From: an uncultured delta proteobacterium
GTDB lineage: Bacteria; Desulfobacterota; WTBG01; CAIYCZ01; CAIRTM01
Direction: 5' to 3'
DNA length: 64,000 nucleotides
NCBI GenBank assembly: GCA_903881505.1
Contig: CAIRTM010000077.1
Location: 1 to 64,000 of the forward strand
Shown here: piece by piece, positions 13,956 to 35,999 of the stretch
Layout of the letters: every line of letters starts with the position of its first letter
Numbering within the stretch: the stretch's first letter is position 1
Made by a program: the position numbers and the translations under genes
The notes under the pieces: model-generated
The model's database searches: none
What the model was told of the DNA's origin: nothing
Seen by the model: the letters and a program-made list of their open reading frames with translations, nothing else

Positions 13956-14903
13956 CTATCGCGCACGGTGCTCGTTTTTAACCTTTATCTGCTCAAGAAG
14001 CTTGCGATTGACCGAAAGCAGGTCGGCGATGAACGCGATCAGGCAGGTCTGAAACCCCATGCCAAGGAGAATACTCGCCAGAATCAGGGACTGCACATGC
14101 CCGCCGCCGGTGCCGGTGACAAAATAAAAGTACAGGAACCTGAGCCCGAGCGCCAGGCCCAGCAGCAGCAGCAGGCTGCCGACTGCCATGAAAAATTTAA
14201 AGGGCTGGTAGACGACGAATATCCGCAGGACCGTGACGGCCGAGCGCATGATATAGGCCGGGATGCTTTTGACAAGTCGCGACGGCCTGATCTCGCGGTT
14301 CACCCTGACCGGGACCGAGGTGATGGCCATAGCCTTCTGGCCGGCCTGAATAATGGTCTCAAGCGTATAGGTGTAGTCGCTGAAAACATTCAGCTGCCCG
14401 GCGCAGGAGCGGCTCATGGCCCGGAACCCGCTCGGCGCATCGGGAATGTCGGTATGGCTGACCGCGCGCACGACCCAGCTTCCGGCCTTCTGCAGCATTT
14501 TTTTTGAAAATGAAAAATCCTGTATCGTTGCGATCGGACGTTCCCCGACGACAAAATCGGCACTGCCGGCAAGAATCGGCGCCACCAGCGCGGCAATGTC
14601 ATCGGCGCAGTACTGATTATCGGCGTCCGTGTTCACGATCACGTCAGCGCCCAGTTCAAGGGCGGAGGTGATGCCGGCCATGAAGGCTTTTGCCAGGCCC
14701 TGGCGTTTGGGAAAGCTCACGATATGGTCAACGCCCAGGCCGCGCGCGCACTCAACGGTCCCGTCGGTGCTGCCGTCATTGATGACGAGCCATTCAACCG
14801 CTTCGAAACCGGGCACATGGCGGGGCAGGCCGGCCAGCGTAACCGGCAGGGTCCGGGCCTCATTGTGGCAGGGGATCTGGATGATAAGCTTCACGGACGG
14901 CAC
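13956..14903 (-). CDS. DPM1/GtrB-like family 2 glycosyltransferase (probable polyprenyl-phosphate sugar synthase) with C-terminal TM helices
   Basis: IIQIPCHNEARTLPVTL; WLVINDGSTDGTVE; VNTDADNQY; DAPSGFRAMSR; two C-terminal TM stretches. Confidence 0.87.
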   Translation of the reverse strand: MPSVKLIIQIPCHNEARTLPVTLAGLPRHVPGFEAVEWLVINDGSTDGTVECARGLGVDHIVSFPKRQGLAKAFMAGITSALELGADVIVNTDADNQYCADDIAALVAPILAGSADFVVGERPIATIQDFSFSKKMLQKAGSWVVRAVSHTDIPDAPSGFRAMSRSCAGQLNVFSDYTYTLETIIQAGQKAMAITSVPVRVNREIRPSRLVKSIPAYIMRSAVTVLRIFVVYQPFKFFMAVGSLLLLLGLALGLRFLYFYFVTGTGGGHVQSLILASILLGMGFQTCLIAFIADLLSVNRKLLEQIKVKNEHRAR

Positions 14904-16402
14904 CTCGTTGCAGTGTTGTCAATGCGGGTAAAACGCTGCGTGAACAGGCAGACCAGCACGCACAGGCTGAGCAGCACATGGGGGATTGCCGGTGCGCTGT
15001 AGCGGCTGAGATTATGCGAAAAAAAAGCATTAAACGAAAGCATTAAAAACGGCAGCGCTATAAACGCCGTTATGCGCGGCCTGCCCGCACACGGGCCGTA
15101 GGCGGCCAGGCCAAGGAACGCGGCTGCGCACAGCGCGTTGAGGGCTGTAAACAGCCCCCCGCCATAGAAGCACCACATGCCCCGCCAGGCGAACAGCAGC
15201 GACATGAGCGTATGCCGCACGGGGTGCCGCACTATCCACTGGCGGGCCTCGCGCTTCAGATACCCATCGGCCGCAAGTTCAGGATTGGCATGTCCCTGTG
15301 AGGCAAACCGCCTGATCACCCTGGCCCGCTCGGCCCGGCTCCGGCTGTGGAACGAAATCGCATCTTCGGGCCTGCCGGCCCGCTCAGCCGCCTCATCCAT
15401 GAGCGCAAACCCGGAATCGGATGAGCGGTTCAGGCGCGCCCCCCGTCCGCCTTCTTCGAAGTCCGCGGGGGCGCGGTCAAGAGACGAGTTTTTCACCAGC
15501 TTTTTGTAGGCGCCGGGCCCCCAGAGATACAGGGCCGAAACAGCCTCATCCATGGTCATGGTGTCGCGCAGCATGCGGCCGTATAAAACAGTTCCGCCCC
15601 GCTGGGCCAGGGTTGACGTGCCGAACTGCATGTAGTTGCGCAGCATCCAGGGCCCGGCAGCAACCGCGATGCCCGCCGTAAAAACAGCACAGCACGCGAA
15701 CGCGCGAACGGATTTCAAACGCGCAGCGGGTGCACAGCAGAAAAAAACAATCAGCACTGCCAGGGGCGCCAGGTAGAGGAAAACCGCTTTTGTAAGGCAC
15801 AAAACGCCGTAGAGCGCGCCCGCCGGCAGGAACAGGCGCACCCTGCCCGCGCGCACGCTTATGACAAGCAGCAGCGATGCCCAGAGCATGACCGCAGCGG
15901 TCGGGATCTCCGTACAGAGCGTGTCGGCATGTTCGGGATTTCTCAAAAATACCAGCCATATCAGCACACACGACAAACATGCCGCAAGGGTGCTGCGCGT
16001 CAGCTCGACAGCCAGGGCCGCGGCGCCGAGCAGCACCAGCAGCGCCCAGGCAATGTTCACCCGCTTCACCTGCCGGCACAGGCTGCCGCCGGCCGCCTGC
16101 TCAAAATCCATATTCGGCGAGAACGCCGGATGCAGGCGCATGAAAAGCGCGGCCGCGGCCGGAACGACCGGTTCGCGGTAATTATCAGGCGATGGCTCTC
16201 CCGCGGCCGGCTCCTCAATCGAAAACACGCCCCAGACATTCAGGTTAAAGCCCGCCCGCAGGTTCTGGCGGGCATCATGTGTGATAGGCGACTGCGTGAA
16301 TACGCTGTCAAGCCGCCAGCACAGCACCACAATGACCGCCAGCAGCAGCGCCCGGTACAGCAGGTGTCGTTTCCCCGCAGGTATAAGCGACGGCGCCTTC
16401 AT
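14891..16402 (-). CDS. GT39/ArnT-like polytopic membrane glycosyltransferase
   Basis: About 10 hydrophobic segments; N-terminal ITHDARQNLRAGFNLNVWGVFS and PDNYREP shared with 18734-20233. Confidence 0.7.
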   Translation of the reverse strand: MKAPSLIPAGKRHLLYRALLLAVIVVLCWRLDSVFTQSPITHDARQNLRAGFNLNVWGVFSIEEPAAGEPSPDNYREPVVPAAAALFMRLHPAFSPNMDFEQAAGGSLCRQVKRVNIAWALLVLLGAAALAVELTRSTLAACLSCVLIWLVFLRNPEHADTLCTEIPTAAVMLWASLLLVISVRAGRVRLFLPAGALYGVLCLTKAVFLYLAPLAVLIVFFCCAPAARLKSVRAFACCAVFTAGIAVAAGPWMLRNYMQFGTSTLAQRGGTVLYGRMLRDTMTMDEAVSALYLWGPGAYKKLVKNSSLDRAPADFEEGGRGARLNRSSDSGFALMDEAAERAGRPEDAISFHSRSRAERARVIRRFASQGHANPELAADGYLKREARQWIVRHPVRHTLMSLLFAWRGMWCFYGGGLFTALNALCAAAFLGLAAYGPCAGRPRITAFIALPFLMLSFNAFFSHNLSRYSAPAIPHVLLSLCVLVCLFTQRFTRIDNTATRCRP

Positions 16403-18732
16403 GGCTCTCTACCCGTGTTCATTGCGTACGATGCGGCCAGGCCGCGATACAGGTCCATATACTTTTCAGCTATGCTGCTGATCGCATAGCGCTCTTCTAC
16501 GGTCCGGCGTGCTCCCGCGCCGAGCCTGCGCGCAAGGGCTTCGTCGGAAATAATTTGTTTGACAGCGTCGCTTATCTGGTCCGCGCTGCCGGGGTCGACA
16601 AGGATTCCGTTGACGCCGTTGCGGATAACATCAGGCGCGGCCCCGGTACGGGTGGCGATCACGGGGAGCCCTGCGGCCATGGCCTCCAGAATGACATTTG
16701 ACATGCCTTCCGACAGCGACGGCTGCACGGCAACCGCGGTATTGTCAAAAAATGTTTCCACCGAAGCGGTTTCTCCGTGAAAGACGACCGCGCGGCCAAG
16801 CCCGAGTTGCTCGGCTTTTCTCTCAAGATTGCGCTTCTCCGGGCCGTCGCCGACGATTTCAAGGCGCAGGCTGCCGCTTTCCCGGTACAGCTGGGCAAAG
16901 GCATCCAGTAAAACGGTATGGCCCTTGCCGCTGATCAGCCTGCCGACGCATATGATCCGTGTGCGTGCCTGCGCGGGCCCGTTTCGGGGAGCGAACCTGC
17001 GCGTATCAACGCCGTTCGGAATGCAGACGACCTGCTCGCGGGAAAACCCCTGTTCCAGGGCCTCGCGCGCCGAGGCCGCCGAGGTGACGGCCAGGCGGTC
17101 AGCGCGGCGCAGCACTTTTAAAATAAATGCCCCCAGGAACACCTTCGACAGGGACGAAAAATCGCTTGTAGGACCTGAGCTGGTTATTTTAATGACTGTC
17201 ATTTTTTTAAACAGCAGGCCGGCAATAACAGCGGCCGGCGAATGGAATCCCTGCAGAATATGGCAGTGGATAATGTCGTAGCGCTTTCTGTTCAAGGCCA
17301 TGAAAGCAATGCAGGAAACAGCATACCACAGGGAAAACAGCAGCGGCGCTTCGACGGTACGTATCCGCCGGTGAACGGGCACGCCGCGTATCCGCTCGAG
17401 CACGGGCAGCCCCTTGAAAGACCTGGTGAGCACGCTGACATCGACGCCGCGTTCCTGCAATGCTTCAGCAAGCAGCAGGGCCTGGTTTTCCGCCCCGCCG
17501 CAAAACGGGTGAAAATACGACAGGGCCATCAAAACGCGCGGTTTCCAGGCATGGCCGTCGTGCATGCGCTGCGTTTCCCGGCTGGGCCGTATCGCGCCGC
17601 CAGCGCGTTCCGGCACGATCAACTCACGGTACAGTGCATGGTAGCTGGCGGCAACCTGCTCTATGCCATAGCGCGATTCTGCGAGCGTGCGGGCAGCCCG
17701 CCCGATGCGGTCGGCCAGATCCGCATCAGACAACAGCCGCTGGACCGCGTCATTGATCTGCCCGGCGCTGCCGGGATCGACCAGCAGCCCGGTTGCGCCG
17801 TCCTGAATAATATCCTCGGCCGCCCCGGTGCGCGTGGCGACCACGGGCAGGCCGGCCGCCATGGCTTCCAGAATAACATTCGACATACCCTCCACCAGCG
17901 AGGGCTGCACGAAAATGCATGTACTGTCGAACCGCCGTTCCATGTCCGGCACTGAGCCGTGGAACCTGACGCTGCCGGCAAGGCACGCGCCGGCCGCAGC
18001 GTGCCTGAGGCTGTCCTCCAGCGGGCCGCTGCCGAATATGTCGAGCATAAGCCCGGCGTGCTCCCGTTGCAATAAAGAAAAAGCATCGAGAAGGACATCC
18101 AGACCCTTGTTCGCGCCCAGGCTGCCCGCATACACTATTCTGCCGCGCGCACCCGTATGTCCGCTGGCCGGCCGGAAGCGGGCCGCATCCACGCCGTTTG
18201 GCATTACCGCAATCTGCCCATCAGGAAATCCGTGCGCATGCGCCTCGGCAACCGATGACCGGCTAAGCGCGATAATGCGGTCGGCATGTTTCAAAAGGCC
18301 GAGCATCCAGGGGCCGCACAGGCAGTTCTTCAGCATCGTGAAATCGCTCAGGGCTCCGGAGCTGGCGACCTTGATAATCACCTTCTTGCCGAACAGCAGT
18401 TTCATGCACAGTGCCGCCAAACTGTGGAAGCCGTGCAGAATATGGCAGTGAATGATGTCATATTCCCTGCGATGGGAAACAAGATATACCAGGCATGTTA
18501 AAAAATACGTCACGCCGAACAGCTTGCCCCGGTCGATGACCCTGATGGACCGGAGGACCGGAACACCATCCACATGCTCATCATCCGGCAGCCCCGGCAC
18601 CCGGCGCGTCAGCACCGCTACGCCGACCCCGCGCCGCAAAAGCGCCCGGCAGAGCAGCAGCGCCTGATTTTCCGTTCCGCCGACCACCGGATGGAAATTC
18701 GAAAGTATCATCAGCACTCTGGGCCGGCGCAT
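16399..18732 (-). CDS. Tandem double-domain GT4 glycosyltransferase (two complete GT-B units in one ORF)
   Basis: Copy 1 PRVLMILSNFHPVVGGTENQALLL...EGMSNVILEAMAAGLPVVATRTGAAEDII; copy 2 PRVLMALSYFHPFCGGAENQALLL...EGMSNVILEAMAAGLPVIATRTGAAPDVI, uninterrupted frame. Confidence 0.92.
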   Translation of the reverse strand: MRRPRVLMILSNFHPVVGGTENQALLLCRALLRRGVGVAVLTRRVPGLPDDEHVDGVPVLRSIRVIDRGKLFGVTYFLTCLVYLVSHRREYDIIHCHILHGFHSLAALCMKLLFGKKVIIKVASSGALSDFTMLKNCLCGPWMLGLLKHADRIIALSRSSVAEAHAHGFPDGQIAVMPNGVDAARFRPASGHTGARGRIVYAGSLGANKGLDVLLDAFSLLQREHAGLMLDIFGSGPLEDSLRHAAAGACLAGSVRFHGSVPDMERRFDSTCIFVQPSLVEGMSNVILEAMAAGLPVVATRTGAAEDIIQDGATGLLVDPGSAGQINDAVQRLLSDADLADRIGRAARTLAESRYGIEQVAASYHALYRELIVPERAGGAIRPSRETQRMHDGHAWKPRVLMALSYFHPFCGGAENQALLLAEALQERGVDVSVLTRSFKGLPVLERIRGVPVHRRIRTVEAPLLFSLWYAVSCIAFMALNRKRYDIIHCHILQGFHSPAAVIAGLLFKKMTVIKITSSGPTSDFSSLSKVFLGAFILKVLRRADRLAVTSAASAREALEQGFSREQVVCIPNGVDTRRFAPRNGPAQARTRIICVGRLISGKGHTVLLDAFAQLYRESGSLRLEIVGDGPEKRNLERKAEQLGLGRAVVFHGETASVETFFDNTAVAVQPSLSEGMSNVILEAMAAGLPVIATRTGAAPDVIRNGVNGILVDPGSADQISDAVKQIISDEALARRLGAGARRTVEERYAISSIAEKYMDLYRGLAASYAMNTGREP

Positions 18733-18733
18733 G

Positions 18734-20233
18734 TCAGCTGTCACGGCTGTTCTCCTGCTGCGCAGCGGCACCTGTGCGCCGGCGCACCGCCTGCACGCCC
18801 ACGGCCAGGCTTATGACCATGAAGGGTATGGCGGGGGTATTAAACCGCGGCAGGCTGTTCGTCAGCAGGGCGTTGAGCACGAGAAGACACAACGGAGCCG
18901 CAGCAAACGCGACCAGTTCGCCCTGTTGTTTGAGCGCGGCATACAGGCACACGCAGACAAAGGCCGCATATGCGGCCGCGCCGAAAGCCGTCCAGAAGCC
19001 GCCGCCGTAAAAACACCACATTCCGCGCCAGGCAAGCGGCAGGCTCGCCGCCATATGCCGGAAGGGGTGCCGGGCGATCATCTCCAGCGCTTCTTTGCGC
19101 AGGTATGCATCGGCGGCATGCGCTGCATTGGGGCGGCCAGCCTGCTCGAAATAGTGCTGCATCCGCACGCGCTGCGCTCGCGCAACGGCATAAAATGAAA
19201 CCGCATCTTCAGTCCTTCCCTGCCGCTGCGCGACAGTGTCGTCTCCGGCAAAGCCTGCGTCGGCCGAGCAGTTCAGCCGGGCGGCCCTGCCGCCGCGTTC
19301 ATACTCAAGGGAGCTCACATGCAGCGGCGTACCGCGCACAAGCCGCCTGTATGCGCCGGGCCCCCAGCTGTGAAAGGCGGCCCGGTACTCAAACGCGTCC
19401 ATCCGGTTTATCAGGGCGCGCGTATACAGGGCCAGCCCTCCCCTGTCCGATATTTGCACGCTTCCGAAATGAACGGCATTGCGGATAAGCCAGGGGCCGG
19501 CGGTGAGCAGCACGCCGATACACATCAGGCCCGCGTATTTCATGAGCCGTGCCGGCGCCGCCGTTGTGCGCATCGCGGCCGCGACGGCGGCGCCTGCAAT
19601 CATCAGGGGCGCGGCATACAAAAATATCGCCTTGGTGAGCGCCAGGCCGCCCAGCGCCGCACCGGCGCAGAGCGATGTCCATGGCGAGGGCCGGGTCGCA
19701 AAAACCCCGAAACACAACGCGCAGGCAAGCATGCACGCCGAGGCAGCCATTTCGGTAGTGAGCCTGTCGATGTTCGCGGGGTCCCGCAAAAAGCATGCGA
19801 ACACAAGAACCATCACGACAAGCGCTGCAGGGCCGCTGCGGCTGAGGCGGTACGCCAGCGCCGCACTTGCGCACAGCACCGCAAACGACCACAGCAGGTT
19901 GATTCTCTTGAGCGTGCGGCTGTCAAAGCCGCGCCCGGCGCAGTCGCCGTCGATGCAGGCCCCTCCCTCGCCGAGCAGGCCCATATAGGCCGCGGTTACA
20001 AGCACCGGCAGCGGCTCGCGGTAATTATCCGGCACGGGCTTCGCGCCCGATGGCCCGCTTTTTGAAAACACGCCCCATGCATACAGATTCCAGGCCGACT
20101 GCAGGTTCTGCCGTGCATCGCTCCGGTTGGGCGCGTCGGTAATGCGCCTGTCGAGCTCAGCGCACAGCAGCGCCGCCGCTGCCGCCGCCAGCAGGCACGC
20201 AATCATCCTGCGGGTTCTGTTCTGTGCCGCCAC
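18734..20233 (-). CDS. GT39/ArnT-like polytopic membrane glycosyltransferase, paralog of 14891-16402
   Basis: SDARQNLQSAWNLYAWGVFS, PDNYREP, WGPGAYRRLVRGT, AWRGMWCFYGGG all matched in the neighbour. Confidence 0.7.
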   Translation of the reverse strand: MAAQNRTRRMIACLLAAAAAALLCAELDRRITDAPNRSDARQNLQSAWNLYAWGVFSKSGPSGAKPVPDNYREPLPVLVTAAYMGLLGEGGACIDGDCAGRGFDSRTLKRINLLWSFAVLCASAALAYRLSRSGPAALVVMVLVFACFLRDPANIDRLTTEMAASACMLACALCFGVFATRPSPWTSLCAGAALGGLALTKAIFLYAAPLMIAGAAVAAAMRTTAAPARLMKYAGLMCIGVLLTAGPWLIRNAVHFGSVQISDRGGLALYTRALINRMDAFEYRAAFHSWGPGAYRRLVRGTPLHVSSLEYERGGRAARLNCSADAGFAGDDTVAQRQGRTEDAVSFYAVARAQRVRMQHYFEQAGRPNAAHAADAYLRKEALEMIARHPFRHMAASLPLAWRGMWCFYGGGFWTAFGAAAYAAFVCVCLYAALKQQGELVAFAAAPLCLLVLNALLTNSLPRFNTPAIPFMVISLAVGVQAVRRRTGAAAQQENSRDS

Positions 20234-20260: not shown

Positions 20261-21460
20261 TTACACACTGGCATCTTCAAACCTCAGGCGCAAAAAATTA
20301 TCGATCGCCGCTTCAGGCCGCATGCGCGCAAAAACCGTCGAGCGGCTGATGGCGCTGACATTGAAAACGCTGTGACCGCGCCATGCCCTGAGTATCGCAG
20401 CGGCCAGGTCTTCGGCAGAGCCATTCGCCGCCAGAAGGCCGGTGGCCTGATCCTGCACCAGTTCATCGATGCTGGAACCATACGTGCCGATCACCGGCAC
20501 ATCCAGCAGCAGGCTCTCAATGACCGTATTGGGCAGATTATCGACACGCGAAGGCAGCACCGCGGCAACGGCTTTCCGCACCACGGCGTACAGCACTGCC
20601 TTTTCCTGGGCGCCGATGAGCGTAATTCTTGATGCCTGCGGTCCGAACAGCCGGGCACACTCCTGCTGCGTTGCAGCGTCGGCGAATGTCCCGCACCAGA
20701 CCATGCTGAAATCCGGCGCCTGCTGCCAGACGATCGGCAGCGCATGTGCCAGAACCAGGGAACCCTTGCGGGGCGCAAACGAGCCGAAGTGTATCATAAA
20801 CCTGCCGGGCAGGCTGAACGGCAGTACAGCGGCCGGCTGCGCATCGAGAAAAGCAGGCGGGCGCAGCACGTCCGTGTGTATGCCCCACTGATTGGTGAAT
20901 TCCCGGGCCAGAAAGCTGCTCGGGGCGTAGACGCGGTCGGCCCGTTTGGCCGCGGTCTTCTCCAGAAAACTCATCAGCCTGAAGCCCGCGCCCTTTTTCC
21001 CGTCAGCCGCAAACCACAGGTCGCGCTTGGAGCTCATGCGCATCACATGCGGCCGCTCCGTTCTCCTGCGCACCAGCAGCCCGCAGCAGCCGCAATTGGT
21101 GCTCTGCACAATGTCAAAACAAGCCTGCCGCTCACGCGCATCAAGCGCGCGGCTCAGATACCAGGCATTGTTGAGAGAGGCGGCCGGCCCTGACCACAGG
21201 TTCCCGAACAGGCGCACGAGCACCCAGTTGACCGCCTTGCGCATAAAGCTGTCAGCGGCGATTATTTTGACGCTGTGTACCAGTACCCCGTTGACGGTCG
21301 CGGTTCCGGCCGGGCCTGCCGAGGCCACGAACACTTCGACCGCGTGCCCGGCTTCGCACAGCGCGCGCGTTATCCGGCCAAGATACGTGCCCAGACCGCC
21401 CGAGGTGCCTGTTGCGGTTATAAACTCATTTGTTAAAAATGCGATACGCATGGTGTTCAC
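20261..21460 (-). CDS. Glycosyltransferase family 4
   Basis: TGTSGGLGTYLGRITRALCEAGHAVEVF; VLPSRVDNLPNTVIESLLLDVPVIGTYGSSIDELVQD. Confidence 0.92.
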   Translation of the reverse strand: MNTMRIAFLTNEFITATGTSGGLGTYLGRITRALCEAGHAVEVFVASAGPAGTATVNGVLVHSVKIIAADSFMRKAVNWVLVRLFGNLWSGPAASLNNAWYLSRALDARERQACFDIVQSTNCGCCGLLVRRRTERPHVMRMSSKRDLWFAADGKKGAGFRLMSFLEKTAAKRADRVYAPSSFLAREFTNQWGIHTDVLRPPAFLDAQPAAVLPFSLPGRFMIHFGSFAPRKGSLVLAHALPIVWQQAPDFSMVWCGTFADAATQQECARLFGPQASRITLIGAQEKAVLYAVVRKAVAAVLPSRVDNLPNTVIESLLLDVPVIGTYGSSIDELVQDQATGLLAANGSAEDLAAAILRAWRGHSVFNVSAISRSTVFARMRPEAAIDNFLRLRFEDASV

Positions 21461-22254
21461 GGTATGCGGGCGCCTGACGCGGTAAAAAGCTCGGCCGCCC
21501 GGGCGTTCAGTTCACGGCAGCAGTCCTCAAGCGGACCGTCGTTCTTGACATGCAGGACCGCGATACCCCGGACGGCCAGCTCGTGCGCGGCCGCGGCCAG
21601 GCAGGCCTCAAAATTGCGCTCCAGCTGCGCGCGCCGCGCCGCGTCCGCGTTTTTCAAGCGCGCGGGGAGTCGTCCCCGGGCGGCAAGCCGCGCCGCGCGG
21701 CTCTGCGCCGGCGCATCAACGCAGATGACCGCGTCCGGCGCGGGGACTGCGGCGATATAGGCCCGCACCTTATCCGGATCAGCGGCGCCCGCGCAATAGC
21801 CGAACATCGACAGCGCCCTGCTGCAGAAACCCTCGTCCAGCACCAGCGCCTCGTCCTGTTTCAGCATTTCCGCGGCCAGCTCATAGCCGCTAAACAGGCG
21901 TACCAGCCACGTGACGAGCAGGACGCTGTCCTGAAACTGCTCCGGACGGCGCAGTATGGCGCCGAGCGTGCGCACCAGCCCGCCGTGATCATCAAGGAAC
22001 CTGTCCAGCGCTTCACAGGAAAAACGCGGCCGGGCATACACCGCATGCAGCCAGCGTTTGCCGCGCGCATACGAACAGTACGCAAGCGGGCGGCGCAGGT
22101 CATACCAGCGCGAACGCCGTCGCAGCGCGACATACAATGCCTCCTCTGCCTCAAAGGCCTTACAACCCAGGCTGCGCGCATAGCGGCACAGCTCGCGTGC
22201 CAGTGTGGTTTTACCGGCGCCCGGCAACCCGAGAAACTCGACATGCGTCTTCAC
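21457..22254 (-). CDS. P-loop NTPase, nucleoside/adenylate-kinase-like
   Basis: VEFLGLPGAGKTTLARELCRYARSLG Walker A; LVLDEGFCSRAL Walker B-like; DAVICVDAPAQSRAARLAARGR lid-like. Confidence 0.75.
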   Translation of the reverse strand: MKTHVEFLGLPGAGKTTLARELCRYARSLGCKAFEAEEALYVALRRRSRWYDLRRPLAYCSYARGKRWLHAVYARPRFSCEALDRFLDDHGGLVRTLGAILRRPEQFQDSVLLVTWLVRLFSGYELAAEMLKQDEALVLDEGFCSRALSMFGYCAGAADPDKVRAYIAAVPAPDAVICVDAPAQSRAARLAARGRLPARLKNADAARRAQLERNFEACLAAAAHELAVRGIAVLHVKNDGPLEDCCRELNARAAELFTASGARIP

Positions 22255-23693
22255 AGCATCTCCCAGACAGCGGTTTTGACCGCGAGCGCCACGGACGCGT
22301 ACGGGCCTTCGGCGTCAACAGTCACAGCCGTCGCATCGGCCCTGATGCTGTTGACTGCGCACACCTTCTCTTGCAGCCGTCTCAGTGATGCGGCAGGTTT
22401 GCGTGCGTTCAAAACCTCGGCTGCGGCCTGCAGTACAATCATACGATCCGGCGGTGCAAGGCGGGCATAGAAAAAACGCTCGAGGCGGGCAAGCAGGCCC
22501 CCCGGCTGTTTCTGCAGCCGCGCTCCGTCCATGGGCTCTTCCATGGCATTGAATTGCCGCAGGGGAAAGCGCTCACCGATGACAACACATCCTTTGCTCC
22601 TGAACGACTGCGCGCTCCGGCTCTGCGCATAGCGCTGCCGGGCCACATACGCCCACAGCAGTGCGTCCAGGGTCCGCGAGCAGAACCCGAAAAAACGCGC
22701 CGCCGGACCGATCCCGCGGCGTATGCAGTTTGCAGAGAGCATATCGGCCCTTTGCCGGGCTTTCGTAAAAAAAATGTACGGCCCCGCTGATTTCGGTATG
22801 CCGAAATACAGCACTCTCACCTCCAGCTTCCAGCCGAGCCATGCGGCAAGGTCGCGCGCCAGCGTGGTCTTGCCCGAGCCGTCGGCCCCGACAAGCGCAA
22901 AAAAAACGCCCCGGTCCGGGAGCGTTTTCTTTTTCTGACCATGCCCGCGCACGTTTTTCAGGCGCGCTGCCGCCGTAAAGCGGGCACGGTTCACCACGGA
23001 TGCTGTACAGCAGTTTTTCAGGCTGCGCGTCAGCCGTACTTTAAAACCCAGAAAGTATGCAGGCGTGACCCGGCCGGCGCTGTAGCGCCGGAAAAAACCG
23101 GCCATCAGGCGCTCGTCCAGCCGCAGCCCGGAGGCCTGCAGATGCCGGCCGATATTCTCCGCATCCACACGCCCAAGCAGCCAGTCGAACTCCGCCCTGG
23201 CGGCAGCGGGAATCACTTCGCGGTACGGCCGCAGCAATGCTTTCGCCAGGTCCCGGAAGCGGGCCTTCAAGGCCGTGCGCACGGCCAGCACGATCAGTTC
23301 GCGGGCGTACGCGGGGATCGCGACATCAAACAGCGTCACGCATTCCGACAACAGCCACTGCTCTATTGGCAGATGATAGTTCTTCGGCCTGCCGCCGGTA
23401 ATAATCCTGAAATGCAGGTGGATATGGCCGAGCCTGCCCGTTGCGCCGTCAAAAACCAGCCAGTCCTCGATGCCGGGATACCGCGATGAGGGCTGCGGAA
23501 CAACCTGCTTGCAGCCGGCCTGCCGCAATATACTCCTGCACGCATCGGCCTGGGCGCCGTCAACCAGGATATCAAGATCGGTTTCCCCGGCAAGCGCTTC
23601 GCCGAGGTGCTGGTTGCTTTTCCAGTGGCAGTACCGTATCGGGTGGCGGTTCAGGGCGGCAACCAGCTCTGCAACGGCGCGTACGTGGCTCAT
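22251..23693 (-). CDS. Nucleotidyltransferase-fold domain fused to thymidylate-kinase-like P-loop domain
   Basis: N-terminal RYCHWKSNQHLGEALAGETDLDILVDG (NTase motif) and C-terminal FFALVGADGSGKTTLARDLAAWLG (Walker A). Confidence 0.75.
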   Translation of the reverse strand: MSHVRAVAELVAALNRHPIRYCHWKSNQHLGEALAGETDLDILVDGAQADACRSILRQAGCKQVVPQPSSRYPGIEDWLVFDGATGRLGHIHLHFRIITGGRPKNYHLPIEQWLLSECVTLFDVAIPAYARELIVLAVRTALKARFRDLAKALLRPYREVIPAAARAEFDWLLGRVDAENIGRHLQASGLRLDERLMAGFFRRYSAGRVTPAYFLGFKVRLTRSLKNCCTASVVNRARFTAAARLKNVRGHGQKKKTLPDRGVFFALVGADGSGKTTLARDLAAWLGWKLEVRVLYFGIPKSAGPYIFFTKARQRADMLSANCIRRGIGPAARFFGFCSRTLDALLWAYVARQRYAQSRSAQSFRSKGCVVIGERFPLRQFNAMEEPMDGARLQKQPGGLLARLERFFYARLAPPDRMIVLQAAAEVLNARKPAASLRRLQEKVCAVNSIRADATAVTVDAEGPYASVALAVKTAVWEML

Positions 23694-24850
23694 GACCGTG
23701 CCGCCCTCACGAAAGAAAGATAGCGTTCGGCGCGCAGCTGCCATGCATACTGCGCCGCGTCGCTGCGCGCCCGGGCTGCCATCGCCGCCGCCGCGCCGGG
23801 ATTGTCAAGCGCCCATTGCAGGCCGCGAGCCAGGCATTCGGCGCTGTCGGCTTCAACCAGCACGGCATTGTGGTCATGCCGCAGCACCTCGCGGACAACC
23901 GGGAAATCAGCCGCAATAATGGTTTTCCCCGCGGCCAGGTAGTCAAACATTTTCATGGGCGACATATACGCATGCGCGGATGCGCTGGTATAGGGCATCA
24001 GCACGATGTCGGCAGCCGCCAGCCAGCCCGGCAGCGCCGTAGCGGGAATATGGCCGGTAAAGCGCATGTTGCGCAGGCTGTTCCGGGCCGCCATGGCGCG
24101 GTACGGTTCCATATCATCAGGACTGCCGCCGATGATGAGAAAAAAAATATCCCTGAAGCGCTCGGCACAATACATAATATGTTCAATGCCCCGGCCCGGA
24201 TACAGGCTTCCGCTGAAACAGACGATTGCTCCGGCAGCGGGCAGCCCGAGCCGCTCGCGCAGGTCCTGCCGGGCCGGCAACCCCTCATGGCGCTGCGGAT
24301 CCGCACCGTTGGGCAGTACCGCGATCCTGCTTTCCGGCACTCCGGCCTCAGCAAAAGATTTCCGGCCCGCCTGCGTTGTAGTAACGACCCTGCCCCGGCA
24401 CCGTGGTCTGTTCATGGTCTCGATAAAACGCGGGAAAAGACGGCTGCCGGAAGGCTTTAAAAAATTATGGCATTCGAAGACGAATGGCGTGCCGAACCGG
24501 GCGGCCGTCAGCGCCAGCTCAATCTGCCGGGCGTTGATCATGCGGGCGCCCGCCAGCACCGCGCCGCACAGCGCCAGAAAGGCGTATCCGTTTCTGCGTA
24601 TCGCAGCGGGGCAGCGCTTGAAGGGATCGTAAAGGTAGCGTATGGAAAAATTTGGGGGCAGCCCGTAAAAATCCCACAGTGTGCCCGCGCAGCCCAGCTC
24701 ATCGAGACTCAGGGCCTGGCCCCTTGGAATGATCAGGTCAACTGCTGCTCCCCGGGAGGCCAGGGCGCAGCACATGTTCATGACACAGACCGCATCAGCA
24801 GAGCGCGACGGGATGGAACCGGTGCATGTCAGATATGCGATTTTATACAT
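23690..24850 (-). CDS. Glycosyltransferase family 4
   Basis: IPSRSADAVCVMNMCCALASRGAAVDLI; VLPNGADPQRH; ICFSGSLYPGRGIEHI; MSPMKMFDYLAAGKTIIAADFPVVREVL. Confidence 0.9.
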   Translation of the reverse strand: MYKIAYLTCTGSIPSRSADAVCVMNMCCALASRGAAVDLIIPRGQALSLDELGCAGTLWDFYGLPPNFSIRYLYDPFKRCPAAIRRNGYAFLALCGAVLAGARMINARQIELALTAARFGTPFVFECHNFLKPSGSRLFPRFIETMNRPRCRGRVVTTTQAGRKSFAEAGVPESRIAVLPNGADPQRHEGLPARQDLRERLGLPAAGAIVCFSGSLYPGRGIEHIMYCAERFRDIFFLIIGGSPDDMEPYRAMAARNSLRNMRFTGHIPATALPGWLAAADIVLMPYTSASAHAYMSPMKMFDYLAAGKTIIAADFPVVREVLRHDHNAVLVEADSAECLARGLQWALDNPGAAAAMAARARSDAAQYAWQLRAERYLSFVRAARS

Positions 24851-25825: not shown

Positions 25826-26914
25826 TCAGCGGTCTATCAGCGCGTTGAGAATTGAAATGTGCTTTTCCATTGAAAAATTCTCCTGCACGTGCCGCCGGCC
25901 CTGCCGCCCCAGCGACAGGGCGTAGTCCCGGTCGTCCAGCAGCCTGAGCATGGCATCGGCCATGCCGTCGACGTCGTGCTCGCCGACCAGCAGGCCGGTC
26001 TGCCCGTGCAGGACGGCATCCGGAATGCCGGCATGCTCGGTCGCAACGACCGGCAGGCCGGATGCAGCGGCCTCGAGCACGGCAACCGGCATGCCCTCCA
26101 TATCCCCGTCGTCGGCCGTTATCGAATGCTGAACAAAGCCGCGCGCTCTCTCGTATACGTTCTGCAGCGCGGGGGGATCGACTACACCCGGGAAGGAAAC
26201 GGCGTGTTCGCATCCCAGGTACCGGGCGATGTTTTTACAGGCATTCAGCAGCGGCCCCTCGCCCGCGAAATACAGCCGCGCGTCGGGGTGGGACTTCAAA
26301 ACCCTGGCGAACGCCAGCACGGTGTAATGCGGCGCTTTCTTGTTGACGAACCGGCCTGCGGCCGCGAACGTTTTTTCGCTGCAGCGCGGGTTCACCAGAA
26401 AAAACGCCTCCTGCGGTCCGTACGGGGCATAGGTGATCTTTTCCCTGGCGGCCCCGAGTTCAACCAGCGCGCCGATCATGGGCCGTGACACCGCGACGAT
26501 CGACTCGGCATAATCGAACATCCGGGCGTACTGTTCACGCCAGCGTTCCACGACCCTGCGGACCGATATGTCATAGCCGTGGAAGTGCACGATCAGCGGC
26601 AGGCCTGCCTTCCGGCAGGCGTTCAGGACGGCCGCCCCGGTCGGCCCGTATTCGGCGAACACCTTGTCCACCCGGTTGCGCCTGAAGGAGCGCAGCAGCG
26701 CATCCTCCTGCAGGGTCGTGCCCGCTGAAGGGCGCAGCCTCTTCAGGAGTGCGTCCATGCGGCCGGGCTGAAGAGGCGCCTGTCCTTCACAGCAGCCCGG
26801 CAGGGCGCCGCCGTAATAATACACGACACGGGCTCCCAGCAGCCGCCGGTGCGCCAGGATAAAGGTTTCGCTGGCGGCCGACTTATTGGGCGATATGAGG
26901 GCGATTGTCTTCAT
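25826..26914 (-). CDS. Glycosyltransferase family 4
   Basis: LIVHFHGYDIS; FAAAGRFVNKKAPHYTVLAFARVLKSHPDARLYFAGEGPLLN; EGMPVAVLEAAASGLPVVATEHAGIPDAV. Confidence 0.93.
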   Translation of the reverse strand: MKTIALISPNKSAASETFILAHRRLLGARVVYYYGGALPGCCEGQAPLQPGRMDALLKRLRPSAGTTLQEDALLRSFRRNRVDKVFAEYGPTGAAVLNACRKAGLPLIVHFHGYDISVRRVVERWREQYARMFDYAESIVAVSRPMIGALVELGAAREKITYAPYGPQEAFFLVNPRCSEKTFAAAGRFVNKKAPHYTVLAFARVLKSHPDARLYFAGEGPLLNACKNIARYLGCEHAVSFPGVVDPPALQNVYERARGFVQHSITADDGDMEGMPVAVLEAAASGLPVVATEHAGIPDAVLHGQTGLLVGEHDVDGMADAMLRLLDDRDYALSLGRQGRRHVQENFSMEKHISILNALIDR

Positions 26915-26917
26915 CCC

Positions 26918-28525
26918 CTATTTCCTGGCAACGCCGTAAAGACCCGGCATCATAGTGTTTTTGCTGAATGCCCCGGGCCGGACATCACCCGCAAGCAGCC
27001 TCCGGATCACGGGCGTCAGTACCCATGAAAAAATTCTTCTCCTGGCTTTCGCCATGGGTTTCCGTCGGGCCCACAGTCCCAGCATCTGGGCCAGAGCCGC
27101 ATTCCAGCCGCCGGTCGGCCGCAGGACAATATCGCTGTAGCCTGACTGCGTCAAAATTTTTTCGAGCGCAAAGGGGGTGTACCGGAAGTAGTCGAAGGGA
27201 ACCTCATGCAGCGGCCACACATACGGAACCGTAAAAAAAAGCAGGCCGTTGTCCTTCAGGACCCGGTTCACCTCTCTCAGGGCGCGGTCGGGATTTACGA
27301 TGTGCTCCAGAACCTCCGTGGCCAACACGACATCAAAAGAGCTCTCCGCGAACGGCAGCGTTTCGCCGTTCCAGACGATATCGGGCCCGGGTCCGCCATA
27401 GTCAAGAGCCGCGGCGATATCCAGACCGATGTACTCTGTAACCCCTGCATACGCAAGAATATAGTTTTTATAGGGCATCCTGCCGCAGCCGTAATCAAGC
27501 AGGCGGCCGGAAAACAGGTTGCGGTTCTCCCGGATTGCGGCAAAAATTGCCGTCCGGTGAACGTACCTGTCAAGATTTCCCCCCGTCAGCTCCGGACGGG
27601 TGTAGGCATTCTCGTCAGGAACCGCCCGCATGCCGGCCGGCGGACTTGATTGTACAGGCGCACACACGGGCCCGGGCCCCGTGTGTGCGCCGTGGCGCCG
27701 CAGGCTTTCGCGGTACTCCTGCAGGAACGGCGCAAGCGGGGCGTCATCACCCCTGTCTATCCCCCTGATGGTGCTGTGCGTAAAATGTATGAATACCACG
27801 GAATAGACGCCATTAATCAGAACAGTGCCGTCGCGCTGCACGCGCCGGCATTCGAGCCGGTTCCAGTTGGCCACATTGCAGCCGCGGTGCCTGATGATTT
27901 TCACCCGGTCAAAATATACCGGCAGCAGGTTGAGGTGCGCCTGGTCGACAAACTGTCCCCGCGCGGCATTTTTTTCACATACATATAAACAGGCCGACGC
28001 CCACCATGCAAGCGCGGGCAGCGCATCCCTGGTAACGCCGACAAAGCCGCCGTTGTAAAGTCCGGACGTATACAGGGTGAAAAAATTCGTGCTGTCGGCC
28101 TGCGGGTCTGAAGAGCGCCAATGCGGCGTCAGGATAATGTCATGCGTCTCAAGTTCATCAAACAGGAAACTGTAGTCGTTAAAAAAATGTATGTCGTTAT
28201 CAACATAGATAAGCGCCTCAGCGTGCCCGCGCTCCAGCAGATGCTGTAAAAAAACAGGTTTCATGGCCCACCGGAAGGCGTCCATGGATACAGCGCGGTA
28301 TTTCTCGAGGATCTTCCGGCCCGTGCCGTTCATGCAAAGATCGTCGGTGCCGTACAGTCGGATGCCGTGCGAGCTTGTTATGCGGTCCGCGCCTGCACAT
28401 GCAGCGTCGCTGATAAAAACATTCAGGACGACGTCTGAATTAAAACGCATAAGTGAGTCATACAGCGCACACACATACGGCATATAATCCAGCGTGCTAA
28501 TCGTGCAAAAACTCATGGCATTCAT
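26918..28525 (-). CDS. Fusion: N-terminal nucleotide-diphospho-sugar transferase (GT8-like) and C-terminal class I SAM methyltransferase
   Basis: N-term FCTISTLDYMPYVCALYDSLMRFNSDVVLNVFISD, ALIYVDNDIHFF; C-term LLDYGCGRMPYKNYI, LPFAESSFDVVLATEVLEHIVNPDRALREVNRVLKDNGLLFFTVPY. Confidence 0.8.
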   Translation of the reverse strand: MNAMSFCTISTLDYMPYVCALYDSLMRFNSDVVLNVFISDAACAGADRITSSHGIRLYGTDDLCMNGTGRKILEKYRAVSMDAFRWAMKPVFLQHLLERGHAEALIYVDNDIHFFNDYSFLFDELETHDIILTPHWRSSDPQADSTNFFTLYTSGLYNGGFVGVTRDALPALAWWASACLYVCEKNAARGQFVDQAHLNLLPVYFDRVKIIRHRGCNVANWNRLECRRVQRDGTVLINGVYSVVFIHFTHSTIRGIDRGDDAPLAPFLQEYRESLRRHGAHTGPGPVCAPVQSSPPAGMRAVPDENAYTRPELTGGNLDRYVHRTAIFAAIRENRNLFSGRLLDYGCGRMPYKNYILAYAGVTEYIGLDIAAALDYGGPGPDIVWNGETLPFAESSFDVVLATEVLEHIVNPDRALREVNRVLKDNGLLFFTVPYVWPLHEVPFDYFRYTPFALEKILTQSGYSDIVLRPTGGWNAALAQMLGLWARRKPMAKARRRIFSWVLTPVIRRLLAGDVRPGAFSKNTMMPGLYGVARK

Positions 28526-28545: not shown

Positions 28546-29733
28546 TCAGGATTTTTGGGACAAGGCCGCCCGTACACAGCGCACGTAATGGCGGTAGAGG
28601 TCTACATCCTTTTCATACGCATACAGCGGGGGGGAAGGATTGGAGTCGGGCCAGATGATCGTGCGCCCGGCAAGCGCTTCGCCGACTTTACCCCTGAGGT
28701 CGCTGCCAGCGCTCAGGCTTTCATAATCATACCTGAAAAAAACATTATCCCATATCTCTTTCGAATGGTAGGGCGACAGGCAGGCGAATCCGGTAAAGTT
28801 TTTATGAACCTGATGAGCATTGCCCTGCCATGACGCCCCGCGCGCAAATTGCATGGCATAGAAGTCGTTCAGCGTGCCGCGGTGATAGCTCTTGTGAAAG
28901 GCCATGAGGGTATCGCCCAAGGTCCCCGCCCAGAAAAAACACTTCCCGCCCAGCTCGGCGCCGATTCGTTTCAAAGTCGGCAGCCAGCGCATATGCCGTG
29001 GGTTCGAATACAAATCTCCTGCTACGATTTTCGCGCTCAGATCAGCCCCCGTTTCTTCGTTTTTGCCGTCATGTTCATAGATGCGGTTTATCAAAATCCC
29101 GTTGTCGCTGACCCACCGCTTAACCAGCGGAGCATTCGGTTCGGACGAAAAAACGTTCCAGCGTGAATCATGAACCTTGGGAGCCAGCAGAATCAGCTGG
29201 CTGTCTTTTCCCCCGGTAAGAACAACATGGTTGTAATCCGGGAATTCGTTCTCGATACCATTGATAAACGTGCTTATGTAGAACGCCGTTTTCTCTATGA
29301 AAGCACCGTTGCCGACAAAATCCCCCCCGGGAATCGGTGCGGCCGTATTGGCATCAAACGTGACGGACTCAAACGGCCGCATCTTGAAAATTTCCGCATC
29401 GATAGTTTCACGGGTATGGTACCAATCGCACACAACCCGGTCCCTTTCTGCAAAACAGCCCAGCAGCCTGTCGAGCCACACACAGCCTTTATGGCCATCT
29501 TTTTCACTCAGCCTCCAGGGTGCGGGCTTAAACTTCCGGTTAAGTCTGAACACGCCCTTGTGCTGTATCAGGCGTACAACAGACGTCGAAAGGTAAAGCC
29601 CGGCATCCCGTCTATAATAATAGCAGGGATATATACCCGCGCTTTCATCAGCGCAACCGTCGGCAAACACGACATCTTCTGCGCATAAAGCGGTATACAT
29701 ATCCAGGCATGTAATTTTTCTGCACCGTTTCAA
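28546..29733 (-). CDS. PP-loop (asparagine-synthase C-domain-like) ATPase-type enzyme without an N-terminal glutaminase Cys
   Basis: VVLTGGKDSQLILLA PP-loop-like motif; region before it resembles a degenerate Asn-synthase N-domain; no MC start motif. Confidence 0.55.
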   Translation of the reverse strand: MKRCRKITCLDMYTALCAEDVVFADGCADESAGIYPCYYYRRDAGLYLSTSVVRLIQHKGVFRLNRKFKPAPWRLSEKDGHKGCVWLDRLLGCFAERDRVVCDWYHTRETIDAEIFKMRPFESVTFDANTAAPIPGGDFVGNGAFIEKTAFYISTFINGIENEFPDYNHVVLTGGKDSQLILLAPKVHDSRWNVFSSEPNAPLVKRWVSDNGILINRIYEHDGKNEETGADLSAKIVAGDLYSNPRHMRWLPTLKRIGAELGGKCFFWAGTLGDTLMAFHKSYHRGTLNDFYAMQFARGASWQGNAHQVHKNFTGFACLSPYHSKEIWDNVFFRYDYESLSAGSDLRGKVGEALAGRTIIWPDSNPSPPLYAYEKDVDLYRHYVRCVRAALSQKS

Positions 29734-32070: not shown

Positions 32071-33429
32071 TCAGGAGCCGCCGGCCGCCCCCCCGCCGGG
32101 GGGTATTCTCTCAAGCTCCCAGGAATCCTGCGACAATACAATGCCGCGTTCAAAATGTCCGTGTGACTTGACCGAAAACGAGACATTGGTAAAGCCGTGG
32201 TCATAGGACTCACCCGTTGCCCCGTTCATTATATGATAATTTATGAAGTAGACTCCCGGGCCGAGGTGATGCTCCTTGTAGGTCACAACGGCCCGGTAGC
32301 GGCCCGGACTGATGTTCCTGAAGCGGTGCCTGTTGCGGTCGTTGCTTTTCGACCAAAGGCAGTCGATGTTTTTCGCCTCGTTCAAAACGGCGAGAGCGAA
32401 GAAGATCTCCTCACTCTCTTCATTGATTATGAAATCAAGAAAAACCCTCAGCTCCTCAAAAGCCCCCACCTCGAAGACCCGCTCGCCCTGCCGGTTGAGC
32501 AATCCCAGGTCGACGAACGCCACACGGCCTCCATCCGAATGGCGCTGCCTGAAAAGCTCCCTGTTTCCCGCGTCCCTGTTGATCGCCGCCACGCGCATAT
32601 CCTTGCACAGGTTTTCGTAGCGTATGAGCCCCTCGTTCGAATCACCGTCAAAAAGCAGCCTGCCGTGATCCATGATTATCACACGGTCGCACAGTACGCG
32701 GATCTGGTCCAGGTTATGACTTATAAAGATAAGGGCGTTCGCCTTTGCGCGAAACTCCCTCATCTTGCGCATTGACTTATTGCGAAAAGCAAGATCGCCC
32801 ACGCTCAGCACCTCATCGACCAGCAGGATGTCCGGCTCGCAGTGCACCGCGATCGCAAATCCCAGCCTGACCCGCATGCCGCTTGAATACGTGCTGATCG
32901 GGGCTTCTAAAAAATCGCCGATATCGGCAAACGCAATAATTTCATCGAGCTTTGCGTCAATCTCCCGGCGCTTCATCCCGAGGATCGTGCCGTTGAGGTA
33001 AATATTCTCCCGGCCGGTCATGTGCGGATGGAATCCGGCGCCGACCGCGATGAGGGCCCCGATGCGGCCTGCAAAGGCAATACGGCCTTTATCGGGGGGG
33101 AATATGCCGGTTATAAGCCGGAGCAGGGTCGATTTACCGGAACCGTTGGCGCCGATTATGCCGAGTGCTTCGCCTCTGCGAAGCTCAAAGTTGATGTCCT
33201 CAAGCGCCCAGAATTCATTGTTCCTGAGCCGATCGGTGCCATACGGAACTCCCAGCACGCTGCGGACCGAATCAGCCACGCCATAATACATGCTGTGCCT
33301 GAGCGTGCGGCAAAACTTCTTGTGCAGGTTCTCGACCCGCAGCACGCTATCGTTCTCAAAGCTGACGGCAGGCTGGATCGGCTTCATAATCATGAAATCC
33401 CCTACGAACGCGGTGCGTTTCACAAACAT
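32071..33429 (-). CDS. wzt: Polysaccharide ABC exporter ATP-binding protein with Wzt-like C-terminal beta-sandwich domain
   Basis: IIGANGSGKSTLLRLITGIFPPDKGRI; YSSGMRVRLGFAIAVHCEPDILLVDEVLSVGD; about 170-aa C-terminal extension (VDLGLLNRQGERVFEVGAFEELRVFLDFIINEE...). Confidence 0.9.
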   Translation of the reverse strand: MFVKRTAFVGDFMIMKPIQPAVSFENDSVLRVENLHKKFCRTLRHSMYYGVADSVRSVLGVPYGTDRLRNNEFWALEDINFELRRGEALGIIGANGSGKSTLLRLITGIFPPDKGRIAFAGRIGALIAVGAGFHPHMTGRENIYLNGTILGMKRREIDAKLDEIIAFADIGDFLEAPISTYSSGMRVRLGFAIAVHCEPDILLVDEVLSVGDLAFRNKSMRKMREFRAKANALIFISHNLDQIRVLCDRVIIMDHGRLLFDGDSNEGLIRYENLCKDMRVAAINRDAGNRELFRQRHSDGGRVAFVDLGLLNRQGERVFEVGAFEELRVFLDFIINEESEEIFFALAVLNEAKNIDCLWSKSNDRNRHRFRNISPGRYRAVVTYKEHHLGPGVYFINYHIMNGATGESYDHGFTNVSFSVKSHGHFERGIVLSQDSWELERIPPGGGAAGGS

Positions 33430-33468: not shown

Positions 33469-34320
33469 TCAGAACATTTTTTCAATCACCTTTTCTTCGG
33501 CCACGTAAAACCACTTCATGGACAGCAGCAGAAGAAGAAAAGCCGAAAGGGTCAGACCCAGGAACACATCAGCGCCGGCGGTGCGTCCGAACACGATCAG
33601 GTCGCGGGCACAGCCGTGCAGATACGTCATGGGATTGAGCGCCAGGATCGCCTTCACGATGCCGGTCCTGTCTTCGGCCGTGTAGACAACGGGTGTCAAA
33701 AACATCAAAAAGCCCAGCAGGTACCCAAGCGCTTTTTCGATATCCATTGCGACTACCGTGATGATCGATGCGGTCAGCCCTATGGCCGCGGCAAAAACAA
33801 GCATAGGAACCACCAGCACGGGAGCCGCCCAGTACAGCGCATGCAGGTTGACCCCGAAGCACAAAAGCAGCACGCTCACAAACACAAAGCTGATCAGAAA
33901 ATTCGCATAGGCCTGCAGCAGTTCCTTCACCAGCATGGTGTGATGGGGATAGTGCACCTGGTCGATAAAGCCCTGGCCTGCCTTCAGGGTCCGCGATGCG
34001 GCAACGACGCAGTTGGAAAAAAAACCCCACAGGGTGGTGCTGATGATTACAAACGCCGGATAGGGGAAGTCCATGGTGCCCGGATTGAGCACTCCGGCGG
34101 CGTTCATGAACACCCACGAGGCGAAGCCGAGAAGGGGCGACAGGACGATCCAGCCCAAGCCCAGAAATGACTTTTTATACTGCATGAAAAAATCGCGTCT
34201 GAACAGCTGCCAGATAAGCTCGCGGCAGCGCACGGCATCGGCGGCCATAATGCATACCGCAGCAAGCATACCGGTTCTGCGGCGCTGATGGGCTTCATAG
34301 ACGGTTATGCCGGTGTGCAT
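33469..34320 (-). CDS. wzm: ABC-2 type polysaccharide export permease
   Basis: LIWQLFRRDFFMQYKKSFLGLGWIVLSPLLGFASWVFM; ALNPMTYLHGCARDLIVFG; adjacent to wzt. Start MHTGITVYE at 34320. Confidence 0.88.
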   Translation of the reverse strand: MHTGITVYEAHQRRRTGMLAAVCIMAADAVRCRELIWQLFRRDFFMQYKKSFLGLGWIVLSPLLGFASWVFMNAAGVLNPGTMDFPYPAFVIISTTLWGFFSNCVVAASRTLKAGQGFIDQVHYPHHTMLVKELLQAYANFLISFVFVSVLLLCFGVNLHALYWAAPVLVVPMLVFAAAIGLTASIITVVAMDIEKALGYLLGFLMFLTPVVYTAEDRTGIVKAILALNPMTYLHGCARDLIVFGRTAGADVFLGLTLSAFLLLLLSMKWFYVAEEKVIEKMF

Positions 34321-34378
34321 GCGTGTACCTTCCATATGCGGCGCCCGGGACCAGGCCGGCAACGGAGCGCGGCAGGGT

Positions 34379-35999
34379 TCAGTTTCCGGCGGCGCCCGGG
34401 TCAGGGCGCCGCTGCCAGTCAATGCCTTTTTCCATCGCGGACACAGGAACCGCGCGGTAGCCCTGCAGCTCCGGGCGGTGGATGCTGCAGGCATCCTTAT
34501 GCCAGAAAAAAACCCAGGGCGCCTGCCCGGCGATCATGTGTTCGCACTGCGCATAGAGTTCTCCGCGTCTTACAGGATCCCGCGTTGCAACAGCCTGTTC
34601 AATCAGGCGGTCAAACGGCGCGCCCCTGTAGCGGCTGCGGTTGCCGCCCGCGCCCAGATTGGCGGAATGGAAAAGCGGAAAGAGAAAATTTTCCGCGTCA
34701 GGGTAATCGGCCCACCAGGAAAGCCAGAAGGCATCGGCTTCGCCGTCGGCCACCGCGGCCAGAAACGTGCTCCACTCAAGCTGCACGATCGAGGCCCGTA
34801 TGCCGACGTCCTGCAGATAGGACTGCACAGCCTGGCACATGTCAAGGTTTTCACTGTCGGCTGTCTGGTATATCCGCATGGCAAAACCGTCCGGGTAGCC
34901 GGCCTCGGCCAGCAGGGCCCGGGCCCGCTGCGGGTCGTAGCCGTAGCCGGACGGGGCCGCGCCGCTGCGCAGCAGGGGCGGCACCGGGCCGCGCGCGATC
35001 TGGCCGCGGCCGTCAAGAATCGCCGCAAGCATGGTCTGCCGGTCGATTGCACAGTTCAGCGCCTGCCTGACGCGCACGTCCGCAAAGGGCGCGCGGCTGC
35101 AGTTAAGGCCCAGATAATAGGTATTGAGGCCGGGCGCCTGCTGCACGCAGTCTCGCCAGGCGCGGTCGCGGGCATAGCGCGCGTATTCCGATGACATGAT
35201 GTCGGGAAGTATATCCAGCGAGCCCTTCTCAAAGGCGACCATGGCCGTGAAATCCTCGGGGATAATGCGGTAGCAGATACCGCTGCTCAGCGGGCCCGGA
35301 CCTCGCCAGTTGGGGTTTTTCGCAAGCCGCACATGCTGGTTATGCTTCCACTCAGCAAGCATGAACGGGCCGCTGCCGCCGGCCTGCCGGCCGAAGTCTG
35401 CCCCCAGGCGCTCAACCTCTTCCCTGGGCACCACATATGCGGTCGGCAGCCCCAGCATGCTCAAAAACGGGGCAAAGGGCTCGGCCAGCTCGATTTCAAG
35501 CGTCCGGGCGCTCAGCGCCCTGAGGCCCGCAACGTGCCCGGTGCGGCCCTGCATAAAGGCGTCGGCCCCCTGTATGCGCGCAAGCACCCAGGTGCGCGGC
35601 GAGCGGGTCTGCGGCGCGAGCACGCGCTCGAAGGAAAAGGCCACATCGTGAGCGGTCACCGCGCGGCCGTTAAAAAAAAAAGGCGTCGTCGCGCAACTCG
35701 AAACGGTACGTCCGGCCGTCATGTGAAAGCGTCCAGGAACGTGCCAGATCAGGGCAGGGCCGCAGCCGGTCATCAAAGCCGACCAGGCCGCTGAAAAGCT
35801 TGGCGGCAATGCGCGCGCTGTCAAGGTCCACGATGCGGGCCGGATCGAGCGTGGCCGGGTTCTTCTTCAGCCGCACATAAATCCAGCCGGGCTCCCGTTC
35901 AACGGATGCCCCCGTACAGCCGCCCATCCAGCACGCGGCCGCAGCGCACACGAGGAGCGCGCCTGTTCTTCTGAGTAATCCTCGAACACTGGCTGCCAT
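34379..35999 (-). pseudogene. Peptide/oligopeptide ABC transporter substrate-binding lipoprotein (SBP_bac_5), split by a 1-nt frameshift at a 10-T tract
   Basis: N-part MAASVRG...MGGCTGAS...LARSWTLSHDGRTYRFELRDDAFFF* and C-part FFNGRAVTAHDVAFSFERVL... join in frame if one base of A10 (35672-35681, plus strand) is removed. Confidence 0.85.

Follow-up and report, generated by a model that had tools for sequence, protein, structure and literature searches.

Results

Organization of the locus

The window, i.e. the entire 64,000-nucleotide stretch of DNA analysed, contains a glycan locus in which a GT8-fold glycosyltransferase domain and a class I SAM-dependent methyltransferase (MT) domain are joined in a single ORF; this ORF adjoins a gene for a GT4 glycosyltransferase and shares the locus with genes for an ABC transporter of the Wzm/Wzt type (Table 1).

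Table 1. Coordinates of the fusion ORF, its domains and other features of the locus in the window
Feature	Position	Strand	Remarks
GT4-GT4 double-domain protein	16399..18771	-	790 aa
P-loop NTPase	21457..22254	-	thymidylate/adenylate-kinase-like
P-loop NTPase	22251..23744	-	nucleotidyltransferase-like N-terminal part (by eye); not a WbdD-type kinase
GT4 glycosyltransferase	25826..26914	-	completes the conserved GT8-MT-GT4 trio
GT8-MT fusion ORF	26918..28525	-	535 aa; ATG start
Class I SAM-dependent methyltransferase (MT) domain	26921..27610	-	subfamily signature GGWxAxxAQMxGLW
35-bp near-perfect palindrome	27657..27691	.	linker between GT8 and MT domains; single copy in genome
GT8-fold glycosyltransferase domain	27692..28525	-	residues ~1-278; DxD = D109-N-D111
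Wzt	32071..33429	-	ATPase and C-terminal carbohydrate-binding domain
Wzt C-terminal domain	32074..32583	-	Wzt_C fold; beta-sandwich in model
Wzm	33469..34494	-	ABC-2 type permease

A sequence-only reading of this DNA had assigned a GT8-like N-terminal domain and a class I methyltransferase to the fusion ORF, an assignment that is upheld by family matches and by structure prediction. Residues 337-436 match the Pfam families Methyltransf_11 and Methyltransf_23 (E 1.5e-15 and 4.7e-14, respectively), the Methyltransf_11 match spanning residues 343-431. No Pfam family was matched by the N-terminal half itself, which falls below the cut-off for Glyco_transf_8; its ortholog in a Bacteroidota metagenome-assembled genome (MAG; locus L032) matches Glyco_transf_8 (PF01501) with 28.6 bits against a cut-off of 24.3, and the DxD motif (YVDNDIHFF) is invariant among relatives. 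The AlphaFold model of the whole fusion has a mean pLDDT of 84, with values below 50 for the linker at residues 283-303, and a Foldseek comparison of the model with the PDB returned the glycosyltransferases GlyE and LARGE1, together with many class I methyltransferases.

Both catalytic domains look intact, as judged from their motifs. SAM motif I (LLDYGCGRMPYK) is intact in the MT domain and is kept in its homologs, the loss of SAM-binding residues in which had been raised as a possible objection. Relative to the sister species described below, dN is 0.16 and dS 0.94 for the GT8 half (dN/dS ~0.17), and dN is 0.19 and dS 0.79 for the MT half (dN/dS ~0.24), each estimate being an average over the periods before and after fusion; this purifying selection implies that neither half is decaying.

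A conserved GT8-MT-GT4 trio

The genus is represented by a single other genome, that of a 'Deltaproteobacteria' MAG (G001, loci L031 and L023; hereafter the sister). It has a locus that is syntenic with the window, with the same gene order except for one gene that is extra in the window and absent from the corresponding position in the sister (28546-29733, minus strand). That gene is a 395-aa ORF, the TGGKDSQ motif of which recalls PP-loop (asparagine-synthetase-like) enzymes; searches of Pfam, NCBIfam and the PDB gave no meaningful match for it.

In the sister, GT8 and MT are encoded by two genes (324 and 231 aa, respectively) that overlap by ATGGATAA. In two Bacteroidota MAGs (L032 and L038, nearly identical in this region), GT8, MT and GT4 are encoded by three overlapping genes, the products of which are 51%, 46% and 47% identical, respectively, to their counterparts in the window. 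A search of 395 sampled genomes of the phylum for close MT relatives (E below 1e-38) identified three others, i.e. G165, G119 and, more weakly, G265. In G165 the MT lies within an 837-aa protein and the following gene starts with a GT4a-like domain; in G119 (L083, 9666-12797) MT, GT4a and GT2 are present in one 1043-aa protein. The MT-GT4 pairing in these two genomes identifies MT and GT4 as recurrent partners. Gene layout thus indicates that GT8 joins MT and GT4 in some lineages, and that different pairs fuse in different lineages; by the same comparison the GT8-MT fusion is a local event, restricted to the window genome, and not a conserved feature. The proposal that the fusion is itself a design feature is accordingly not borne out, the relatives carrying two overlapping genes. 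No relative of the GT domain was found on viral contigs.

Two further loci (L067 and L068) have long ORFs that start with the same GT8-like domain (open frames of 820 and 883 aa), with GT4-like sequence downstream by eye. Adjoining the trio in L032 (3571-7119) are genes for an HMGL-like protein (Pfam match) and, by reading of the sequence, an aldolase, a cytidylyltransferase and a HAD phosphatase, a set suggestive of a CMP-ulosonic-acid pathway.

The joint between the GT8 and MT domains

The palindrome at the joint consists of 17-bp arms with one mismatch, separated by one base; it would form a GC-rich hairpin, and with one base more it would be a perfect 36-bp palindrome. Its position in such a hairpin, one base off perfection, means that an indel error is possible, and the fusion could then be unreal or not meaningful, i.e. 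two overlapping genes could have been joined by an indel of one base, introduced in sequencing or assembly, or by a frameshift of very recent origin. The neighbouring frame is consistent with this possibility, in that the GT ends there at a TGA directly before the MT homology and an in-frame ATG is available for the MT, giving a layout much like that of the sister; the fused state is also known from one assembly only. Further, the window contains a second gene broken by a single base, the SBP_bac_5 gene (~35673-35680, minus strand), in which a poly-T run one T longer than in the sister shifts the frame, the cause being a sequencing error, slippage or pseudogene formation. However, the DNA at the joint, which can be aligned between window and sister, differs not by one base but by several indels and many substitutions, with a net frame change, and both the GT stop and the original MT start codon have been lost in the window. 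Moreover, the 790-aa GT4-GT4 protein corresponds to the sum of two GT4 genes (403 and 387 aa) that overlap by ATGA in the sister, and its joint is clearly diverged, which suggests that true gene fusions arise in this lineage. On balance, we consider an artefactual or functionally empty fusion to be possible but unlikely; it is in any case compatible with our preferred explanation of what both enzymes do.

Both members of the genus fold a hairpin at the joint (z -2.1 and -1.8). It is strong and lies at the GT8 tail in each (27657-27691 in the window; ~10838-10875 in L031), despite differing sequence. The Bacteroidota copies (L032 and L038) did not fold one, and a hairpin is thus not a conserved feature of the GT8-MT-GT4 module. 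The palindrome was rejected as a dispersed repeat, being unique in the genome. A conserved RNA element was also rejected, an Rfam search of 20-36 kb giving no match.

Wzt and its C-terminal domain

The ATPase of Wzt is close to those of Aquifex aeolicus Wzt and TagH/TarH. The ~170 residues that had been noted as extra after the ATPase core are real: they match Wzt_C with 28.5 bits in the per-protein search and 31.7 bits when the whole genome was scanned (cut-off 30.4), are predicted to form a beta-sandwich, and are included in the match of the Wzt model to full-length A. aeolicus Wzt (~407 columns, ~29% identity). The Wzt_C match and the full-length match together identify them as the known carbohydrate-binding C-domain of Wzt. 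The fusion had been described as lying next to Wzt; the two are not immediate neighbours, three genes (at 28546, 29898 and 30785) and ~3.5 kb lying between them. A second Wzt with a C-domain is encoded elsewhere in the genome (contig C85), where no relative of the fusion MT was recognized within ~9 kb.

Is the fusion a writer of a cap that is read by Wzt?

The sequence-only reading had proposed that the fusion places a terminal sugar and caps the chain by methylating it, the cap then being read for export by the Wzt C-domain, in a manner like that of the Escherichia coli O8/O9a system. The A. aeolicus system and, as proposed, that of WsaE of Geobacillus are further parallels. In characterized systems, Wzt proteins with such a C-domain do recognize a terminal modification, or cap (PMC9445017), and by precedent the genuine Wzt_C domain here implies some terminal modification. 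The fused MT is, furthermore, the only methyltransferase recognized among the scanned locus proteins, those at 14891, 18734 and 28546 being without a family assignment, and WsaE, an MT-GT-GT fusion, has been proposed to cap its glycan with a 2-O-methyl group (PMC2943079).

Comparison of loci argues against such a pairing of writer and reader. If the two had been linked, the Wzt C-domains at trio loci might resemble each other; the C-domains of the window and of L032/L038 are only 15% identical where the trio enzymes are 46-51% identical, a value that lies within the background of 12-21%, with one independent trio locus being compared. The two nearest relatives of the C-domain (26% and 29% identity) are found in loci with MTs only distantly related to that of the fusion; an MT gene occurs near both, but also in ~3 of 8 other Wzt C-domain loci by the same search, so its presence there is uninformative. 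Conversely, the genome of G165, 99% complete, encodes a close MT relative with a GT4 partner, but searches of it gave no Wzt_C match and no Wzt-type ATPase at E below 1e-30; in G119, the Wzt_C genes lie either ~0.77 Mb from its MT fusion within one contig or on a different contig. The proposed link between writer and reader is therefore not supported by the background-level C-domains or by the MT-GT4 pair in a genome lacking a Wzt match.

At the residue level, the window Wzt does not retain T346, A348 and W362 of the A. aeolicus methyl-binding pocket, in a region where the alignment is weak, and transfer of that pocket to the window Wzt was rejected. Wzt binding pockets differ between cap types, and for this reason the loss of pocket residues says little.

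With regard to length control, which had also been suggested as a role of the fusion, characterized terminators carry a coiled-coil ruler (PMC11231755, PMC3482155), whereas the longest helix that AlphaFold predicts for the fusion spans ~20 residues, and there is thus no ruler; this role finds no support. A family scan detected neither a protein-kinase-like nor an AmiN-like kinase domain in the fusion, as would be expected of a terminator that makes a methylphosphate cap, but the WbdD of E. coli O8 makes a methyl-only cap and has no kinase (PMC3482155), so that a missing kinase does not exclude a methyl cap. The suggestion that kinase-like genes at 21457 and 22251 might contribute phosphate was rejected: both encode P-loop NTPases with a weak resemblance to thymidylate kinase, the folds of which are neither those of the WbdD-type kinase (PMC3482155) nor of the AmiN-like kinase of Klebsiella pneumoniae O7 (PMC11231755). 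The N-terminal part of the protein encoded at 22251-23744 includes a DLDVLVD-like stretch, and both of these adjacent NTPases are conserved in the sister locus.

Thus, the cap writer/reader idea, though not refuted, is weakly supported, and we consider it unlikely. What stands of the earlier interpretation are the intact domains, a true Wzt C-domain of the cap-reading type and the sole recognized MT; fusion by design, the link between writer and reader, length control and the supply of phosphate do not. A bolder form of the cap model, in which the fusion is a compact, ruler-free cap writer, with one polypeptide adding and methylating the terminal sugar, a different pocket in the Wzt C-domain and chain length being set in another manner, strikes us as improbable. 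If the cap model were true, the fusion would represent a small terminator without a coiled-coil ruler, and length control would become a testable question.

Discussion

Following the results of the cap tests, a glycosyltransferase and then a sugar O-methyltransferase acting in sequence, with GT4 beside them, is the best-supported mechanism. We therefore favor, with moderate confidence, the explanation that the GT8-fold glycosyltransferase, the sugar O-methyltransferase and GT4 constitute a three-enzyme glycan-building module, which adds and methylates one sugar and the members of which are occasionally fused. Normally, each member of the trio would have its own gene, the three genes overlapping and their translation probably being coupled. 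The GT8 domain would add a sugar to a lipid-linked glycan, and the MT would methylate that sugar or a neighbouring one, with GT4 working beside both and the product being exported by the Wzm/Wzt of the locus. Sugar methylation, the order of the steps and export of the glycan by the locus Wzt are what we infer from the enzyme families and their setting.

In the lineage of the window, indels in the hairpin-forming stretch at the GT8/MT overlap would have abolished the stop and start signals and brought the two frames together, leaving two catalytic domains tethered by a disordered linker of ~30 residues. Such tethering would fix the stoichiometry of the enzymes and ease the hand-off of substrate, and would introduce no new chemistry. 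The presence of the trio in only a few genomes counts against the module explanation.

Nucleotide sugars and carboxylates are also possible substrates for MTs of this class. An alternative is that the MT modifies a nucleotide sugar, or a different part of the glycan (e.g. the primer/adaptor), rather than the sugar placed by GT8. In four distant GT8/MT loci (L045, L054, L060 and L062), the MT adjoins, by eye, genes for an NDP-sugar epimerase and a DegT-type aminotransferase, as would suit a role at the nucleotide-sugar level; these MTs, however, are distant (~100 bits compared with ~240 bits for trio MTs), and the trio in the window has no adjoining sugar-nucleotide gene, making this alternative an improbable one.

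The locus is best read as ordinary biology with a small evolutionary twist. The GT8-MT-GT4 module is common to a 'Deltaproteobacteria' lineage and Bacteroidota, and its members fuse in various ways, i.e. GT8 with MT here and MT with GT4 elsewhere. The results also urge caution, in that an MT encoded near a Wzt C-domain need not be the writer of its cap.

The Wzm-Wzt transporter of A. aeolicus (PMC9445017; PDB 8dku and 7k2t) provides the closest solved full-length Wzt, sharing the arrangement of ATPase and C-domain with the window protein but not its 3-O-methyl pocket residues. GlyE (5gvv) and LARGE1 (7zvj) have the same fold as the N-terminal domain of the fusion, with ~12-14% identity in those alignments. 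WbdD of E. coli O8/O9a (PMC3482155) resembles the fusion in having a class I MT, in a locus for an ABC-transporter-dependent glycan with a Wzt carrying a carbohydrate-binding domain; the O9a protein has a protein-kinase-fold domain and a coiled coil, and no glycosyltransferase, the window fusion being the reverse in all three respects. ORF6 of K. pneumoniae O7 (PMC11231755) is likewise a single large protein, encoded in a Wzm/Wzt locus, that has both MT and glycosyltransferase modules, but differs in its AmiN-like kinase, its coiled-coil ruler, its two glycosyltransferase modules and its proven role as a terminator. The nearest architectural precedent is WsaE of Geobacillus stearothermophilus NRS 2004/3a (PMC2943079), in which an MT that modifies a sugar of the exported glycan is combined with glycosyltransferase domains in one polypeptide, again in a Wzm/Wzt locus. 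WsaE has the order MT-GT-GT, with the MT first and rhamnosyltransferase domains, whereas the window ORF as assembled has the GT8-fold domain first and the MT second, its relatives being unfused and an indel artefact being possible. Since glycosyltransferase-MT fusions in Wzm/Wzt loci are already known, the architecture of the fusion is itself no surprise.
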